Below, piece by piece: positions 13,398 through 22,131 of a DNA stretch of 64,000 bases (position 1 is its first letter; the number at the start of each line of letters is the position of its first letter). The DNA lies in NCBI RefSeq assembly GCF_000328665.1, contig NC_019977.1, forward strand, positions 1,054,001 to 1,118,000, in the 5' to 3' direction. The notes beneath the pieces were generated by a model. The model made no database searches and was not told the DNA's origin. It was given only the letters and a program-made list of their open reading frames with translations. The stretch is from Methanomethylovorans hollandica DSM 15978. GTDB lineage: Archaea; Halobacteriota; Methanosarcinia; Methanosarcinales; Methanosarcinaceae. The position numbers and the translations under genes were made by a program.

Positions 13398-14063
13398 TTA
13401 TACTGCATCAAAGAACTTGATTGCAAAGTCACAGAACCTGATGATAACATCTTTGTCCAGCTCGAATTCCTTCCTGTTACCAAGATAGTTACGTGAAGAT
13501 GGAGTTATCTCCTTGCCCTCTTTCAGTTCAGTATACGTTATGCATTTTATATGCTTCTTTGACACAACGATAAAGTAGCAGTTCTCATATGGATAATCCG
13601 GTCCAATGTCATCAAAAGTAAATGTTTCGTTCTTCCTGAACTTGACATCAGCAAAGTAGACTTCACCACTATGTGGATGCTGTATCACGAGATCAGGCAT
13701 TCGTTTGATATTTGTAGCAGCATCGGCACGTACCTCTTTTAGCAGTTGCATCACTCCAGGAAGACTGTTCGCTATATTGTACCTGAAGACGCCGTACCCT
13801 AAATATGTGAACAATTCCCCGACAAGAGTTTCAGCTATCTTGCCCTTTATAATATTTTCAATGAACATACTGTCCTTTTCTGAAATATTGTTAGAATCAA
13901 TGCCTTTCTCATGGTCAGCATACGTTTGAACATTCACGACTTCACTATCGATGTATTGTGATCTCTGATGCTCCCTGCAGAGAGGACGGTCAAATCTATG
14001 CAAGGAAAAATTGTATTCTGCTTCTGTAATGTCGGTATTACATTCTGAACAAATGTTATCCAT
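13398..14063 (-). CDS. Zinc-finger protein with PD-(D/E)XK nuclease-like domain
   Basis: A 221-residue protein I do not recognise by name. The N terminus has a likely zinc site C5-x2-C8-x20-C29-x2-H32. The middle and C-terminal parts show a restriction-endonuclease-like order: helix with E78/E83 (KIAETLVGELF), then RMPDLVIQ (D124) and after 14 residues FADVKFRK (D139, K141), i.e. PD-x14-D-x-K. This suggests a metal-dependent nuclease or a Holliday-resolvase-like fold. The start at 14063 has GAGGTG 8 bases upstream. It is divergent from an AlkZ-like gene. A role in repair or defence is inference. Confidence 0.6.
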   Translation of the reverse strand: MDNICSECNTDITEAEYNFSLHRFDRPLCREHQRSQYIDSEVVNVQTYADHEKGIDSNNISEKDSMFIENIIKGKIAETLVGELFTYLGYGVFRYNIANSLPGVMQLLKEVRADAATNIKRMPDLVIQHPHSGEVYFADVKFRKNETFTFDDIGPDYPYENCYFIVVSKKHIKCITYTELKEGKEITPSSRNYLGNRKEFELDKDVIIRFCDFAIKFFDAV

Positions 14064-14289
14064 TTTTGTACACCTCAAATAGTCGGTAGCTGTATAAATA
14101 TATTAATAGTATTTTAACTTTACTATATATAAAAAAATAGGCATTTAATATCATGAAAGTGTATAAAAACGATGGCAAGATGGTAAGATAATGGATAGCA
14201 GCTGTATGGGTTATGCCATAAGGTGCTATGTATGCTCTGAACATGCTTTCAGAGAAACACATAAATCCGGGTTCAGCAGAATTTAACAA

Positions 14290-15387: not shown

Positions 15388-15426
15388 AATATCAATATGA
15401 TATGGCTTTTGCAGTTCCGATCAATA

Positions 15427-16230
15427 TTATGCCTTGATCTCTGCTTTTAACTGCTGGTAGCAGTCTTCAAAGATCTTCTGGTTACCACTATTGAATTCCA
15501 GTATCTCGAAATCGAATATTTCTGCGAATTCCTTTATTGCATCATCAAAATTCTCAGTATAGGAAAGGCCTGTATTGATCTTTGCTACCCTCTTGTATCC
15601 GATCATCTCATGGGTCTTTTTCATCATTTGTAATGCCTTTTCCGGATCACCGTGCAGTCTGCTGTTTATATCAAGCAGTTCCCGCCAGCCTTTGCTATAC
15701 ATGGGTGTAAAGAGATAAGTCCCTGCATCACTCACGCTTTTAAGTATCTTCAGGTAGTTATCCACTCCCCCTACGGTCGCCCCTATACAGTCATCTACGA
15801 TCCTGTCCTTATTGTCTTTCAGGATATGCACAGGGCATGAGAGTGCATTGGCAGCAAAGTCCTTTTCGATATTACCAAGTACATTGCCGCATAAGCCGTA
15901 AAAAAGTAAGATGCCCGAAGAATAAGGAGCAAGAACTTCGACTGTCTCATATACTTTCTTTTTCAGCTCTTTAGGACTCCTGTGCAGTCCCAGTTCCATA
16001 AGATAGATCAGGACAGTGTATTTGGACTCATTTTCTGCTTCGCAGACAGGAGAGATATTCCCAAGGGGAAGTGTTGTGTAGACAATGTTCGTTCTATCGA
16101 GCTTTTCCACAAACTCCCCTATGTTCTCATTGTCAACAACAATGATCTCATTGATCGCAGGGTCGTTTTCAAGGATCCATATGATCTCATCCTGCATGAT
16201 CTTGCATGAAATGATAGTCATAGTAGGCAT
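15427..16230 (-). CDS. DUF1638 protein
   Basis: A 267-residue soluble protein of the DUF1638 family, common in methanogens and often found near corrinoid methyltransferase genes; its function is unknown. Visible family features are TIISCKIMQDE at the start, LLFYGLCGN at about 109-117, CIGATVGG and YKRVAKINTGL. Its cysteines (C9, C114, C132) could bind a metal or cofactor, but this is inference. A strong GGAGGAATTTA RBS fixes the start. It follows the TetR gene by 65 bases on the same strand and is probably under its control. Confidence 0.75.
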   Translation of the reverse strand: MPTMTIISCKIMQDEIIWILENDPAINEIIVVDNENIGEFVEKLDRTNIVYTTLPLGNISPVCEAENESKYTVLIYLMELGLHRSPKELKKKVYETVEVLAPYSSGILLFYGLCGNVLGNIEKDFAANALSCPVHILKDNKDRIVDDCIGATVGGVDNYLKILKSVSDAGTYLFTPMYSKGWRELLDINSRLHGDPEKALQMMKKTHEMIGYKRVAKINTGLSYTENFDDAIKEFAEIFDFEILEFNSGNQKIFEDCYQQLKAEIKA

Positions 16231-16295
16231 TAAATTCCTCCAGATCTGATTGGTTTGTCAGGCTGTATTTTTCAGTAAGTTATTTTTCCGGAAGG

Positions 16296-16874
16296 TCAAT
16301 CCTTCCATCCCAGGTCGGACCTTATCAGGGAGATCGATCTTTCGAGCGTTCCTCTTCCCCTTATGCTGGCAAATTGCCTGGCACCCAGCAAGGTTTCAAG
16401 TATAGCTTCTGCACGCAGATCGACAGGTTCGGAAAAGTTAAATTCACCTTTTTCCAGGCCGGTTTTCAGAACCTCTGAAAACCATGCCAGCACATCTTCC
16501 AGTAACAATAAATGCTGTTCCTTTACCTTATCAGGAAGTTCTTCAAAGTCAACGATAACGGAACCTATAGGACAGATGCTACGGCCTTCGTCGAATTCAC
16601 TCAACATGAAATCAAAGAAGTATTGCAGCTGTTCACGGGCCGAGCAGCCAGAACCGCTCATTCTGGCAGTATCCTCAGTAAATTGCTGCCTTATGCCTTC
16701 AAATATGGTTGCAACGAGGTCTTCCTTCTGAGGATAATAGTGATGAATGGCTGCATTCTTTATACCAAGCTTCCGGGCAATATCCCGGTAGCTGAACCCA
16801 TTGTAGCCTCTGCATTGCAAAAAGTTTCGTCCGTAATGGAGTATCTGTTGCTTGGTAGTGTTCATCTCTTCCAT
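16296..16874 (-). CDS. TetR/AcrR-family transcriptional repressor
   Basis: A repressor of about 192 residues with an N-terminal HTH (KQQILHYGRNFLQCRGYNGFSYRDIARKLGIKNAAIHHYYPQKEDL) of classical TetR form and a C-terminal ligand domain of the TetR_C/YcdC-like kind. The longer frame from 16916 is rejected because it would run through a perfect operator palindrome at 16884-16903. Starts at 16874 or 16865 (MNTTKQQ) are both possible; neither has a clean RBS, so translation may be from a very short leader. It lies upstream of DUF1638, which is likely its regulon partner. Confidence 0.85.
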   Translation of the reverse strand: MEEMNTTKQQILHYGRNFLQCRGYNGFSYRDIARKLGIKNAAIHHYYPQKEDLVATIFEGIRQQFTEDTARMSGSGCSAREQLQYFFDFMLSEFDEGRSICPIGSVIVDFEELPDKVKEQHLLLLEDVLAWFSEVLKTGLEKGEFNFSEPVDLRAEAILETLLGARQFASIRGRGTLERSISLIRSDLGWKD

Positions 16875-16883
16875 GATCGTGCA

Positions 16884-16903
16884 CTTACTTACTAGTAAGT
16901 AAG
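16884..16903. promoter_or_regulatory. TetR-type operator, perfect 20-bp palindrome
   Basis: A fully symmetrical site made of CTTACTTACT and its exact reverse complement lies 10 bases upstream of the TetR start codon. TACTAGTA-centred TTAC/GTAA repeats are the usual autoregulatory operator shape of TetR/AcrR repressors. Confidence 0.75.
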
Positions 16904-17068
16904 GAATATGTTTCACCTGTATAAGAACTATTTGCTTTATGCATGAAGGGTTAGATCACACTTCATATTGAGTAAGGGATTTTGATGTCAGTTAATTTCT
17001 GAAACCCTTGTATTTGTACATGAAGCTCTTTCTCCTTTGTGTTTTTCACAATGGTTCAGTTTTAGAAA

Positions 17069-17093
17069 CTACCAATTTGGCAGAAATTGGTAG
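17069..17093. other. Perfect hairpin-forming inverted repeat in the 16.9-17.3 kb gap
   Basis: Ten-base arms CTACCAATTT and AAATTGGTAG surround GGCAG, followed on the plus strand by GTTTTTG. It could be a terminator or a protein-binding site at the edge of the AT-rich island. Between 16904 and 17303 I see no gene, only this and the promoter of the RloC-like gene. Confidence 0.4.
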
Positions 17094-17202
17094 GTTTTTG
17101 CAGATTTATTTATGCTTGATTCTTTCTATCTTTTTCCCTTTAGCTAAAAAACGCTTAGGTTGAATATTCAGAAAAATTCAGATCTGTCAATTTTAGGAAA
17201 TA

Positions 17203-17250
17203 AAACTAGTAGAATTCATTGAACTAGTTTGACAAAATTTTATATACCAT
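17203..17250 (+). promoter_or_regulatory. Promoter and operator candidate of the RloC-like gene
   Basis: An inverted pair AAACTAGT (17203-17210) and ACTAGTTT (17223-17230) with a 12-base spacer sits just before a TATA-like TTTTATATACC at about 17238-17248. A start of transcription near 17270 would leave a short leader before the ATG at 17304. Confidence 0.45.
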
Positions 17251-17303
17251 TGATTAACTTATTTAAAATAATAAGTACCATCTAACGCTTAAAAATGTGA
17301 GGG

Positions 17304-19562
17304 ATGATTGTGATAAAGAAAATACAAAAAATAGATGATTTTCGCATTTTTAAGCATTTTTTATGGTCGGATGATTTAGAAGAATTCAGTAAATACAATT
17401 TAATCTATGGTTGGAATGGCTCAGGAAAAACCACACTTTCAAATGTTTTCCGTCAGCTTGAAGAACGAAAACTGTTTCCTGACTGTTCTGGGTTACAGTT
17501 ACAAATAAATGATGAAATAATTACCGAGAAGAATTTTAATCGATTGTCATTAATGATTAAAGTTTTCAATCAGGATTTTGTTAGCGAAAATGTTTTCAAT
17601 CCTAAACAGGATGTTAGTCCGATATTTTTTCTTGGTAAAGAAGACATACGAAAACAAAATGAAATTACTAGGCTTACTACAGAACGAAATCAAATTGAAA
17701 TTGAAAAAAATGATCTTGCAAATACGTTAAATAAAATAACTACCGAAAAAGACAAGCTGTGCACATCTATTGCAAAGAATATAAAAGATTGTAACCGTAC
17801 GAGTGAAAAAGATAGGTATACTAACTATACAAAAAAAGAATTTATAGCAAAATGTGAGTTTTTAAAAAAACAAGATTACAAAAACAAAATCTTAACTGAA
17901 AATGAGTTTTATGAATTAAAGAGAAAAAAGGAATCCACTCCAAAAGATAAAATAAATGAAGTCAAACTAAATCTTCTTTCTCAAAGTGAAATAAAGTCTT
18001 TTGTAGAACCTATGTTGAACAAAACAGTTGTTTCAGAAACCATTGAAAGGCTCCAAATTAACAATGAATTAAACGAGTGGGTGAGTAGTGGTCTCAAGAT
18101 ATACAATGAAGAAAAGTCAGGCCGCTGTCCTTTTTGTGAACAAGAATTGAAAAAAGAGGTAATAGAAAGTTTAGAAAAATATTTTAATGACCAGTATGAT
18201 GAATTTATAAATGATCTTGAGTCGCTCAAAAAGGACATTTATTCTTATAAAAATGCTACTAATACACATTTTCCACATGAAACTGAATTTTACATTGAAT
18301 ATAGAGACCAATATATTTTAAGTTTAAATGAATTTGAGAACAAACTAAGAGAATACTCTAATTATCTAGATTTGCTATTAACCCAAATTGAAGAAAAAAA
18401 GAAAAATCCTTTTCAAAAAATTGAGATGAATGATGATATCTCAAAAATAGATCTAACTGGAATAGGGATTCTTAATAGCATCATTCGATTAAATAATGCT
18501 AAAACTAATAATTTTATTGAAGATCTAGCTAAGTCAAAAACTAAATTAGAAGAACATTATGTTGCAGAAAATTTAGATAATTATTTAATACTAGAGGCTA
18601 AACAAAATCAAATTAGCCAACAACTCCGTGAAATAAATACTACTATTCACATTCTTGATACTAAAATTAAGGAATTAGAGAATCAAATCATCGAACACCT
18701 ACGTCCGGCTGAAGAAATTAATGAAGAATTGCATAGTTATCTTGGACGAGATGAGATTAAATTTGAGATTAGAGAAAATGGTTATCAGATTAAGAGATCT
18801 GGTGAGGTTGCTAAATCTTTAAGTGAGGGAGAAAAAACAGCTATATCTTTTATATACTTCTTGAAGACACTTCAAGATAAAAATTTTGATATTAAAAAAG
18901 GTATTATTGTAATAGATGATCCTATCTCAAGTTTGGATTCAAATGCTCTTTACAATGCTTTTGGATTCATGAAAAATCGCACAAAAGATGCTTTGCAGTT
19001 ATTTATATTAACTCATAATCATTCTTTTTTTAAAGAAGTGAAAAATTGGTGGAAAGCCGGAAGAAGTCAAGCTAGTAGAAATCGTTCTATTAACTCCAGT
19101 TATTATATGTTGAAAAATATGGTTGTTGATGGTCAGAGAGTCGCAAAGTTGCGACCTCTTGATAATATGTTAAAAGAATATAATTCAGAATATCATTACC
19201 TTTTTAGCCTAGTCTACAAAAACTCCACAGATTGTGACGGGAATTTTGAGAATTATTATTTGTTACCAAATATTTGCAGGAGATTACTCGAAGCATTTCT
19301 TGCATTTAGAGTTCCTAGCGAGATTGGAAATTTTGGGAATCAAATTAATAAATTGGATATTACGGAAGAAAAAAAGATACGGATTCAAAGATATACTGAT
19401 GCAAATTCCCATAGTGATTATATTAGAGATGATCCTGAAAAAGATTTATCTTTTTTAGATGAAACACCTTCTATTTTAACAGATATTTTAGATTTAATTA
19501 AAGTAGAAGACCCCAAACATTTCAAAGAAATGAAAGGATTAATTGACAAAAAATCTAAATAA
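17304..19562 (+). CDS. RloC/PrrC-like AAA_13 ATPase, candidate anticodon nuclease
   Basis: A 752-residue ABC/SMC-type ATPase. In order: Walker A GWNGSGKTT (about 36-44), the VFNQDFV motif typical of AAA_13, long coiled coils (about 105-480) broken by a zinc hook CPFC (C275, C278), ABC signature LSEGEKTA (about 506-513), Walker B IIVIDDPISSLD (534-545), and THNHSFF switch His. The C-terminal domain has R659-x3-E663 (CRRLLEAF) and H703 (ANSHSDY), matching the R-x3-E...H triad of PrrC/RloC anticodon nucleases. Such proteins cleave tRNA on phage attack or DNA damage. The gene is clearly more AT-rich than its neighbours and stands alone, suggesting transfer. GTG at 17310 is an alternative start with better RBS spacing. 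A generic AAA_13 ATPase remains possible. Confidence 0.78.
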   Translation: MIVIKKIQKIDDFRIFKHFLWSDDLEEFSKYNLIYGWNGSGKTTLSNVFRQLEERKLFPDCSGLQLQINDEIITEKNFNRLSLMIKVFNQDFVSENVFNPKQDVSPIFFLGKEDIRKQNEITRLTTERNQIEIEKNDLANTLNKITTEKDKLCTSIAKNIKDCNRTSEKDRYTNYTKKEFIAKCEFLKKQDYKNKILTENEFYELKRKKESTPKDKINEVKLNLLSQSEIKSFVEPMLNKTVVSETIERLQINNELNEWVSSGLKIYNEEKSGRCPFCEQELKKEVIESLEKYFNDQYDEFINDLESLKKDIYSYKNATNTHFPHETEFYIEYRDQYILSLNEFENKLREYSNYLDLLLTQIEEKKKNPFQKIEMNDDISKIDLTGIGILNSIIRLNNAKTNNFIEDLAKSKTKLEEHYVAENLDNYLILEAKQNQISQQLREINTTIHILDTKIKELENQIIEHLRPAEEINEELHSYLGRDEIKFEIRENGYQIKRSGEVAKSLSEGEKTAISFIYFLKTLQDKNFDIKKGIIVIDDPISSLDSNALYNAFGFMKNRTKDALQLFILTHNHSFFKEVKNWWKAGRSQASRNRSINSSYYMLKNMVVDGQRVAKLRPLDNMLKEYNSEYHYLFSLVYKNSTDCDGNFENYYLLPNICRRLLEAFLAFRVPSEIGNFGNQINKLDITEEKKIRIQRYTDANSHSDYIRDDPEKDLSFLDETPSILTDILDLIKVEDPKHFKEMKGLIDKKSK

Positions 19563-19770
19563 TTAGTATTATTTACTAACATGGAGTAGGCAATAGTGAC
19601 TACATATAAAATTCTCTCTACAATCTAAGTTTGTTTGTCATGTAAGCTAATGTTTCTCGCTAATTTTGGTTCAACTAAGATGAGTACCAGTCAATTCATA
19701 GCTTTTTTCGCTACTCACATCCAAAACTATATCTTTACTCAGATCATCAAGTCTTAGCGGAGCCGTCAAG

Positions 19771-22131
19771 ATGCGCATAGGGGTCTATATTTGTCATTGC
19801 GGGCTGAACATTGCACACGTCATTAACGTGCATAGCCTGCAGGAGAAGGTCAGCAAGCTAAAGGATGTGGTGCTTGTGAAAGATCTGCAGTTCATGTGCT
19901 CGGATTCAGGCCAGGATTCCATAGCTGAGGACATAAAGGCACATGATCTTGATCATATCCTTGTGGCAGCCTGCTCTCCTAAGCTGCATGAACCTACTTT
20001 CAGGCGAGTGCTGCAGAAGGCAGGACTTAACAAGTACATGCTGGAAATGGTGAATATCCGGGAACAATGCTCCTGGGTGCACATGGCAGAACCCCAGCTT
20101 GCAACACAGAAAGCTTTTGACCTCATACGTATGGGTCTCGCACGCCTGAAGCTGCTGGACCCTTTGCAGATAAAAACAGTAACTGCCAACAAGAGTGTAC
20201 TTATCATAGGCGGGGGGGTCGCTGGCATAGAGGCCGCCCTAACTCTTGCTGACAGCGGCTATCATGTACACATGGTGGAAAAGGAACCCACGATCGGTGG
20301 AAAAATGGCATTGCTCAACGAGGTGTTTCCTACGAACGATTGCTCCATCTGCGTGCTTGCACCCAAGATGACCGATGTGCAGCAACATCCGTCCGTCGAT
20401 CTTATGACCATGGCCGAGGTTTCCGAGGTAAGAGGCTTTGCAGGTAATTTCCAGGTAACGGTTACAAAGAAACCCAGATATGTCATAGAGGACAGATGCA
20501 AGGGATGCGTGGACGAATGCTCAAGGGTCTGTCCTGTGGAAATGGCCAACCGTTTTGATATGGGTATGGGCAGGACCAAGGCGATAAACATGCCCATTCC
20601 CCAGGCTGTGCCCCAGGTGGCTTACATTGATAGTGATTACTGTGTAGGCTGTGGACTGTGCATGCAGGCCTGTCCTGCAGATGCCATTGACTACAACATG
20701 AAAGAGGAAACAATATCTATCAAAGTGGGTGCTATCATCCTTGCCAGTGGCTATAAGATATTTGATGCAGCCCGCAAGGAGGAATACGGATATGGTGTTT
20801 ACCCGGATGTCATAACCAACATGGAGCTGGAACGCCTGCTCAATGCGTCCGGACCCACTAGGGGAAAAGTGCTTGTGCCTTCCACCAGGCAAATACCAAA
20901 GAAAGTAGCATTCATACAGTGTGTGGGTTCAAGGGATGAGACTGTGGGCAATCCTTACTGTTCACGTGTATGCTGCATGTCTGCCATGAAAAATGCCCAG
21001 TTGCTCAAGGAACGTTATCACGATATTGAGATCGTTATCCACTACATAGATATACGGGCTGCGGGGGAGATGTATGAAGAGTATTACATCCGTTCCCAGT
21101 CTATGGGTATTGATTTCATAAGGGGGAAAGTGGCTGAGGTACAGCAGGATCTCAATAACAAACTGTTCATGAGGTTCGAGGATACATTAAGTTCCGAGGT
21201 AACAGAAGAATACTATGACCTTGTAGTACTTTCCACTGGAATGGAAGCTCCGGATGATGCTGATAAAATCTCCAGGGTCCTTAATCTTTCCCGCCGTACG
21301 GACCGTTTCTTCGCGATTGCCCATCCCAAGATGAGGCCAGTGGATTCTCATGTGAAGGGAATTTACATAGCGGGTTGTGCTTCCGGTCCCAAAGAGATAC
21401 AGGCGGCTATTGCCCAGGGGCTGGCAGCCTCAGCCAAAACCATGCAATTACTTACCTGGGGAGAGCTGGAAACTGACCCACTAAGTGCTCATGTGGACGA
21501 AGAGAAATGTATAGGGTGCAAAATTTGTGAAGATGTGTGCCAGTTCGGGAAGATCAAGGTGATCAACGGCAAAGCCACGGTAGATGAGGTCTCATGCTAT
21601 GGGTGTGGTGCATGCAGTGCCTCCTGTCCCACGGATGCCATCATGATGCGTAACAGTACTGATGAGCAGATCCTGGCTCAGGTGCGGGCAGCCACTGAAG
21701 TAAAATCCGAGTTCCCTCTTATTGTAGCATTTCTCTGTAACTGGTGCAGCTATACCTGTGCTGATCTTGCAGGCGTTTCAAGGATACAGTATCCTACCAA
21801 TATCAGAGCTATCAGGGTAATGTGTGCTGGTCGCGTGGACCCGGATTTCGTGCTGGAGGCCTTTAAGGGCGGGGCGGACGGTGTACTTGTCGCGGGCTGC
21901 CGGCTTGGTGAATGTCATTACATCTTTGCTAATTACAGTGCCAAAAAGAGGATGGAAGTGCTGCAGGGAGTGCTGGAGGACATAGGTATCGATCCCCATC
22001 GCCTGAAAGTGGAATGGATCTCGGCAGCTGAAGGTGAAAGATTTGCCAGGTCCATAGAGAGTTTCGTGGATGAGCTTAAGGAGATAGGGCCCATAGGTTC
22101 TGAGCTGCTGGAGGGGCACAATGACGGATGA
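19771..22131 (+). CDS. hdrA2: HdrA2-type heterodisulfide reductase subunit A fused to MvhD
   Basis: A 786-residue flavo-iron-sulfur protein. FAD-binding GGGVAGIEAALT is at about 147-158 and the HdrA cysteine region NDCSICVLAPK at about 189-199. Two ferredoxin motifs lie near 243-255 (CKGCVDECSRVCP) and 290-301, and two more near 580-591 and 609-620. From about 645 to 770 follows an MvhD-like domain (FLCNWCSYTCADLAG...CAGRVD...GCRLGECHY), fused as in the cytoplasmic HdrA2 of Methanosarcina acetivorans. HdrA2B2C2 is a flavin-bifurcating enzyme linking F420H2, ferredoxin and CoM-S-S-CoB. It overlaps the polyferredoxin gene by 11 bases. No hdrB or hdrC lies nearby. Confidence 0.92.
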   Translation: MRIGVYICHCGLNIAHVINVHSLQEKVSKLKDVVLVKDLQFMCSDSGQDSIAEDIKAHDLDHILVAACSPKLHEPTFRRVLQKAGLNKYMLEMVNIREQCSWVHMAEPQLATQKAFDLIRMGLARLKLLDPLQIKTVTANKSVLIIGGGVAGIEAALTLADSGYHVHMVEKEPTIGGKMALLNEVFPTNDCSICVLAPKMTDVQQHPSVDLMTMAEVSEVRGFAGNFQVTVTKKPRYVIEDRCKGCVDECSRVCPVEMANRFDMGMGRTKAINMPIPQAVPQVAYIDSDYCVGCGLCMQACPADAIDYNMKEETISIKVGAIILASGYKIFDAARKEEYGYGVYPDVITNMELERLLNASGPTRGKVLVPSTRQIPKKVAFIQCVGSRDETVGNPYCSRVCCMSAMKNAQLLKERYHDIEIVIHYIDIRAAGEMYEEYYIRSQSMGIDFIRGKVAEVQQDLNNKLFMRFEDTLSSEVTEEYYDLVVLSTGMEAPDDADKISRVLNLSRRTDRFFAIAHPKMRPVDSHVKGIYIAGCASGPKEIQAAIAQGLAASAKTMQLLTWGELETDPLSAHVDEEKCIGCKICEDVCQFGKIKVINGKATVDEVSCYGCGACSASCPTDAIMMRNSTDEQILAQVRAATEVKSEFPLIVAFLCNWCSYTCADLAGVSRIQYPTNIRAIRVMCAGRVDPDFVLEAFKGGADGVLVAGCRLGECHYIFANYSAKKRMEVLQGVLEDIGIDPHRLKVEWISAAEGERFARSIESFVDELKEIGPIGSELLEGHNDG

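Follow-up and report, generated by a model that had tools for sequence, protein, structure and literature searches.

The locus and its gene

The DNA analysed here, called the window below, is a stretch of 64,000 nucleotides from Methanomethylovorans hollandica DSM 15978, whose genome consists of two replicons of 2.43 Mb and 0.285 Mb. At 17304-19562 of the forward strand lies a gene for a protein of 752 residues, referred to as rloC. The reading frame, the motifs and the numbered residues are exactly as an earlier note on this DNA had given them. The A+T-richness which that note ascribed to the gene was also found: its GC content of 28.5% is the lowest among the 41 open reading frames of the window, against which the contrast was measured, and far below the other 40 (next 39.0%, median 45%). 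The features are listed below. Residue counts refer to 156 full-length proteins, namely the window protein and 155 relatives from genomes, viral contigs, plasmids and phages; the relatives were picked by ATPase-motif patterns, so that conservation of the ATPase is partly built in, whereas neither hook nor triad played any part in the search.

17118-19716 (about), no strand: foreign AT-rich insert of ~2.6 kb with rloC, flanked by a TetR-family and an hdrA-like gene
17284-17358, + strand: possible mRNA hairpin spanning both the ribosome-binding site and the start codon of rloC (17-nt arms, 88% complementary)
17304-19562, + strand: RloC-type ABC-ATPase/HEPN protein, 752 aa, as judged from AAA_13, PDC-S06 and AlphaFold2
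17409-17435, + strand: Walker A, GWNGSGKTT, residues 36-44 (N38, G41 and K42 in 154 of 156 proteins)
18126-18137, + strand: CPFC zinc hook, residues 275-278 (Cys pair in 156 of 156)
18819-18842, + strand: ABC signature LSEGEKTA, residues 506-513 (S507 in 156, G509 in 155 of 156)
18903-18923, + strand: Walker B, IIVIDDP, residues 534-540 (D538, D539 and P540 in 156 of 156)
19182-19514, + strand: HEPN-fold domain, residues about 627-737, putative anticodon nuclease (domain model and structural matches)
19278-19292, + strand: R659-x3-E663 of the putative catalytic triad (R in 152, E in 141 and D in 12 of 156)
19407-19412, + strand: S702-H703, the His completing the putative triad and the Ser before it (H in 153, S in 146 of 156)

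The protein matches Pfam AAA_13 (PF13166) nearly end to end (residues 13-729, E 4.6e-153). It also matches PADLOC PDC-S06 (model PDLC04894) over its full length, with 820 bits over residues 3-746. PDC-S06 is a candidate label of PADLOC with no mechanism attached, and the reading of it as RloC comes from the present analysis. Relatives are annotated as AAA family ATPase or, in the case of a phage protein, as RloC.

ATPase, coiled coil and zinc hook

The D-loop and the linchpin His571, the latter found in all 156 proteins, come after the Walker B motif. The AlphaFold2 model of the whole protein had a mean pLDDT of 89.0 (86-sequence alignment). In this model the ATPase is split by a coiled coil, with long helices at residues 112-164 and 404-462. 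The structural matches of residues 1-629 are Rad50, SMC and other ABC heads, with Z scores of about 15-18 (best 17.7). In a profile search, the hook region weakly matched 1l8d and 6zff, two structures of the Rad50 zinc hook (E 0.01-0.02). The Rad50 zinc-hook family PF04423 had no match in the genome of this organism, even though the alignment clearly shows the CxxC hook. Judged from the motifs and the model, this part of the protein is an ABC ATPase of the Rad50/SMC kind, split by a coiled coil that bears the zinc hook.

C-terminal domain

The C-terminal 168 residues, modelled alone, gave a pLDDT of 89.3 and a pTM of 0.80. A Foldseek search with this lone domain returned no match with E below 0.001. 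On structural re-alignment, the twelve best chains all belonged to the HEPN superfamily (HEPN-MNT toxins, small proteins and Csm6) with Z scores of 9.2-7.7; for a helical bundle, a Z of 8-9 does not by itself settle the fold. Two entries, 1wwp and 1ylm, are presumably small proteins of this superfamily. Nucleotidyltransferases followed at Z 7.1, and then, further HEPN chains aside, unrelated bundles at Z 6 or less. A sequence search found no solved structure of RloC or PrrC. The HEPN match of the model agrees with published work that classes the nuclease domains of PrrC and RloC as HEPN (PMC3710099).

The triad has the spacing R659-x3-E663-x39-H703 with a Ser before the His, and the RloC signature is R-x3-E-x36-52-H. 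Among residues 585-752, H703 ranks first and R659 second in conservation over the 156 proteins. The triad and the hook are near-invariant, though many of these proteins are only 20-30% identical to the window protein. The earlier note had named two findings that would speak against its proposal, namely a C-terminal domain unlike that of PrrC/RloC and an ortholog family with variable R/E/H residues. The modelled domain has the fold assigned to these nucleases, and the triad residues are conserved in the 156 proteins, as the counts listed above indicate. R659, E663 and H703 thus have the conservation and the predicted setting of an active site, and they would catalyse the cleavage of RNA.

It should be mentioned that two phage proteins (L042, 2923-5181; L044, 2914-5193) keep the zinc hook and R-x3-D/E, with no His at the H703 column. 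One of the two is annotated as "translation-disabling ACNase RloC".

The likeness of residues 1-629 to Rad50/SMC heads might suggest a DNA repair protein of that type without nuclease activity of its own. Rad50/SbcC shares the ATPase head, the coiled coil and the zinc hook with the window protein, and its partner is the Mre11/SbcD nuclease. However, no Mre11-like gene lies next to rloC, and Rad50/SbcC has no C-terminal HEPN domain such as that modelled here; the absence of the C-terminal domain of RloC from Rad50 has been described (PMC2610378). Moreover, the two most conserved columns of this domain are those of the putative active site, and a search of five genus mates did not find the gene there. 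A repair protein of this kind seems scarcely probable.

Comparison with RloC and PrrC

In the definition given by Davidov and Kaufmann, an RloC protein has the motifs of an ABC ATPase, carries a CxxC zinc hook on its coiled coil, is 658-897 aa long and bears a C-terminal Arg-x3-Glu-x36-52-His, often with a Ser before the His (PMC2610378). All of these sequence features are present in the window protein, and its 752 residues fall inside the published range. Together with the HEPN fold of the model, they bear out the RloC-type reading. By these published criteria, with the tested RloC proteins compared by description, the protein is a member of the known RloC family.

The RloC proteins of Geobacillus kaustophilus and Acinetobacter baylyi share with it the split ABC ATPase, the CxxC hook, the size range, the R-x3-E-x36-52-(S)H signature, the HEPN domain and a rare linkage to restriction systems; the window protein differs in its archaeal host and in its location on a foreign AT-rich insert. 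Purified G. kaustophilus RloC was turned on by its ATPase with linear DNA; its zinc-hook mutant was far more active, and every mutation of the triad abolished activity. A. baylyi RloC cut tRNA-Glu and tRNA-Gln after DNA breaks (PMC2610378, PMC3874168).

PrrC proteins have 341-416 aa, lack a zinc hook and are genetically linked to a type I restriction enzyme (PMC2610378, PMC3710099). The PrrC of EcoprrI has an ABC ATPase and an Arg-x3-Glu...His nuclease domain in common with the window protein, but is about half the size, has an uninterrupted ATPase without a zinc hook and lies inside a type Ic restriction locus. The PADLOC PrrC model matched residues 455-730 when the whole protein was searched (5e-12) and gave no match once the C-terminal domain was searched alone. 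With the CPFC hook, 752 residues and no type I locus around the gene, the protein is of the RloC rather than the PrrC type, as the earlier note had held.

TetR, DUF1638, AlkZ-like and hdr-like genes surround rloC and, in agreement with the earlier claim, none of the adjacent genes belongs to a restriction-modification system. Several type I systems are present elsewhere in the genome, and the nearest strong N6_Mtase/HsdR genes are about 237 kb from rloC. Among the 116 nearest neighbours of the relatives, type I genes were few: Methylase_S 7, HSDR_N 3 and N6_Mtase 3. These occasional occurrences are comparable with the 8 of 73 RloC orthologues linked to restriction systems in a 2008 survey (PMC2610378). 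A PrrC-like nuclease silenced in trans by one of the type I enzymes of the genome could draw on both observations. The size and the hook of the protein stand against it, however, as does the solitary position of the gene, which the closest relative, in genome G032, likewise shows. A PrrC-like nuclease silenced in this way is very unlikely, although the protein might still interact in trans with the type I systems of the genome.

A further protein in the window, of 226 aa (13398-14078, - strand), is conserved in the sister genome G003; its PD...DVKFR pattern is similar to that of PD-(D/E)XK nucleases, and no Pfam match was found for it.

Insertion site

The comparison with sister genomes that the earlier note had proposed revealed an insertion, with two empty sites and a kdp operon at a third. 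In G005, the window segments 15407-17003, 17062-17117 and 19718-20999 align at 84-88%, and 152 bp replaces the insert. G004 has 54 bp at this position. In G002, a kdpABCD operon (genes named by eye from the open reading frames) occupies the space between TetR and hdrA. G003 lacks the TetR gene, and a DUF1638 gene directly precedes hdrA. The TetR/hdrA intergenic site is thus variable within the genus (window 17118-19716; L025 6223-13639). The island bounds of 16904-19770 given before are too wide, since only about 17118-19716 is foreign to the sisters.

The four sisters have in common a block of ~55 bp just upstream of the hdrA leader, for which each pair beats 300 of 300 shuffles. In the comparison of the window with this block, 75-214 of 300 shuffles were as good, which means that the sequences are unrelated. 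Since the window lacks the block, the insert is considered to end at about 19716/19717 and to have replaced the DNA upstream of hdrA. At 19650-19716 of the window, the shared block is swapped for unrelated sequence; hdrA may be transcribed from a new promoter here.

The protein is encoded in none of the five genus mates searched. No transposase or integrase was found among the neighbours of the insert, and no tRNA at the site. The terminal repeats of the insert are weak and none is significant, and no DNA-level relatives were found on plasmids. The empty sister sites, the GC content of the gene and the scatter of the family on the tree (see below) support horizontal acquisition of rloC.

Distribution of the family

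A search of genome contigs with the single protein gave no relatives, and an alignment query found 320. The family is carried by 7 of 393 genomes of the archaeal phylum, and some members are on plasmids, in phages and on viral contigs. The 11 archaeal copies on the tree require 11 changes, against a mean of 10.5 for shuffled labels; they are scattered as random labels would be. This scatter through a bacterial tree is consistent with repeated acquisition from bacteria, where archaeal copies from metagenome bins are to be read with the proviso that bins may hold foreign contigs. The tree has open forks at the grouping of the window protein with L004, whose identity of 43% is the highest to any relative. 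L004 belongs to G032, a genome of the same family, which has two divergent RloC-like genes. The other, L007, is 36-38% identical to the window protein and sits in a different part of the tree.

The view that an archaeal RloC would be little explored was overstated. Already in 2008, 1 of 45 archaeal genomes was known to carry RloC (PMC2610378), and in 2024 it was listed as commoner in Asgard archaea than in other prokaryotes (PMC11291487). The window protein is a good, if essentially expected, addition to the known RloC family.

Proposed function

The main reading, with a probability of roughly 0.78, is that of a horizontally acquired, stand-alone RloC-type protein in which a DNA-sensing ATPase unlocks a HEPN ribonuclease directed against tRNA. 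By analogy with the G. kaustophilus and A. baylyi proteins, the Rad50-like ABC ATPase with its zinc-hook coiled coil would sense linear or broken DNA, so that broken or viral DNA ends would be the trigger. ATP hydrolysis would then unlock the C-terminal ribonuclease with its putative active site R659/E663/H703. The nuclease would cleave one or a few tRNAs at the wobble nucleotide, which it may also excise, and translation would be stopped during virus infection or DNA damage. An RloC-type protein would need no linked restriction-modification partner for this.

The pointer to tRNA anticodons as the target is family membership, since HEPN domains such as that of RNase LS cut other RNAs (PMC3710099). 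A HEPN ribonuclease of RloC architecture might serve the same abortive defence through another target, e.g. mRNA, rRNA or another tRNA site. The nearest structures of the domain include Csm6 and HEPN-MNT toxins, and no relative exceeds 43% identity, which would leave room for such a difference. However, the arrangement of Ser-His and R-x3-E fits the RloC definition exactly (PMC2610378), and both tested RloC proteins cut tRNA anticodons. A target other than the anticodon seems unlikely, and cleavage of tRNA by an RloC-type protein is the preferred reading.

A more specific proposal has about an even chance of being right: an active archaeal anticodon nuclease with a tRNA target of its own, acquired alone from bacteria at a chromosomal site that is variable, and restrained only by its ATPase and hook. 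This would show that RloC functions in both bacteria and archaea and that it travels as a defence made of one gene. The tested RloC proteins found in the literature surveyed are two, both bacterial. An intact, lone archaeal rloC in a clean insertion, with the site unoccupied in sisters, is a good candidate for testing tRNA-cutting defence in archaea, and it also bears on the question whether one gene suffices. In addition, the PADLOC label PDC-S06 can now be linked with the RloC architecture, in which the catalytic and zinc-hook residues hardly vary.

Sequences upstream of the gene

An inverted repeat at 17203, AAACTAGT-N12-ACTAGTTT, precedes a TATA-like box. The earlier note had counted it as a feature of the promoter. 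As an operator it was rejected: 23% of shuffled sequences reach its length, and it is not significant. A second inverted repeat at about 17066-17093, read by eye, is also present in sister genomes without rloC and therefore lies outside the island. The folded 100-nt segment containing the possible hairpin over the start codon has an energy of -18.6 kcal/mol, with a weak z of about -2. This hairpin could lower the expression of rloC.
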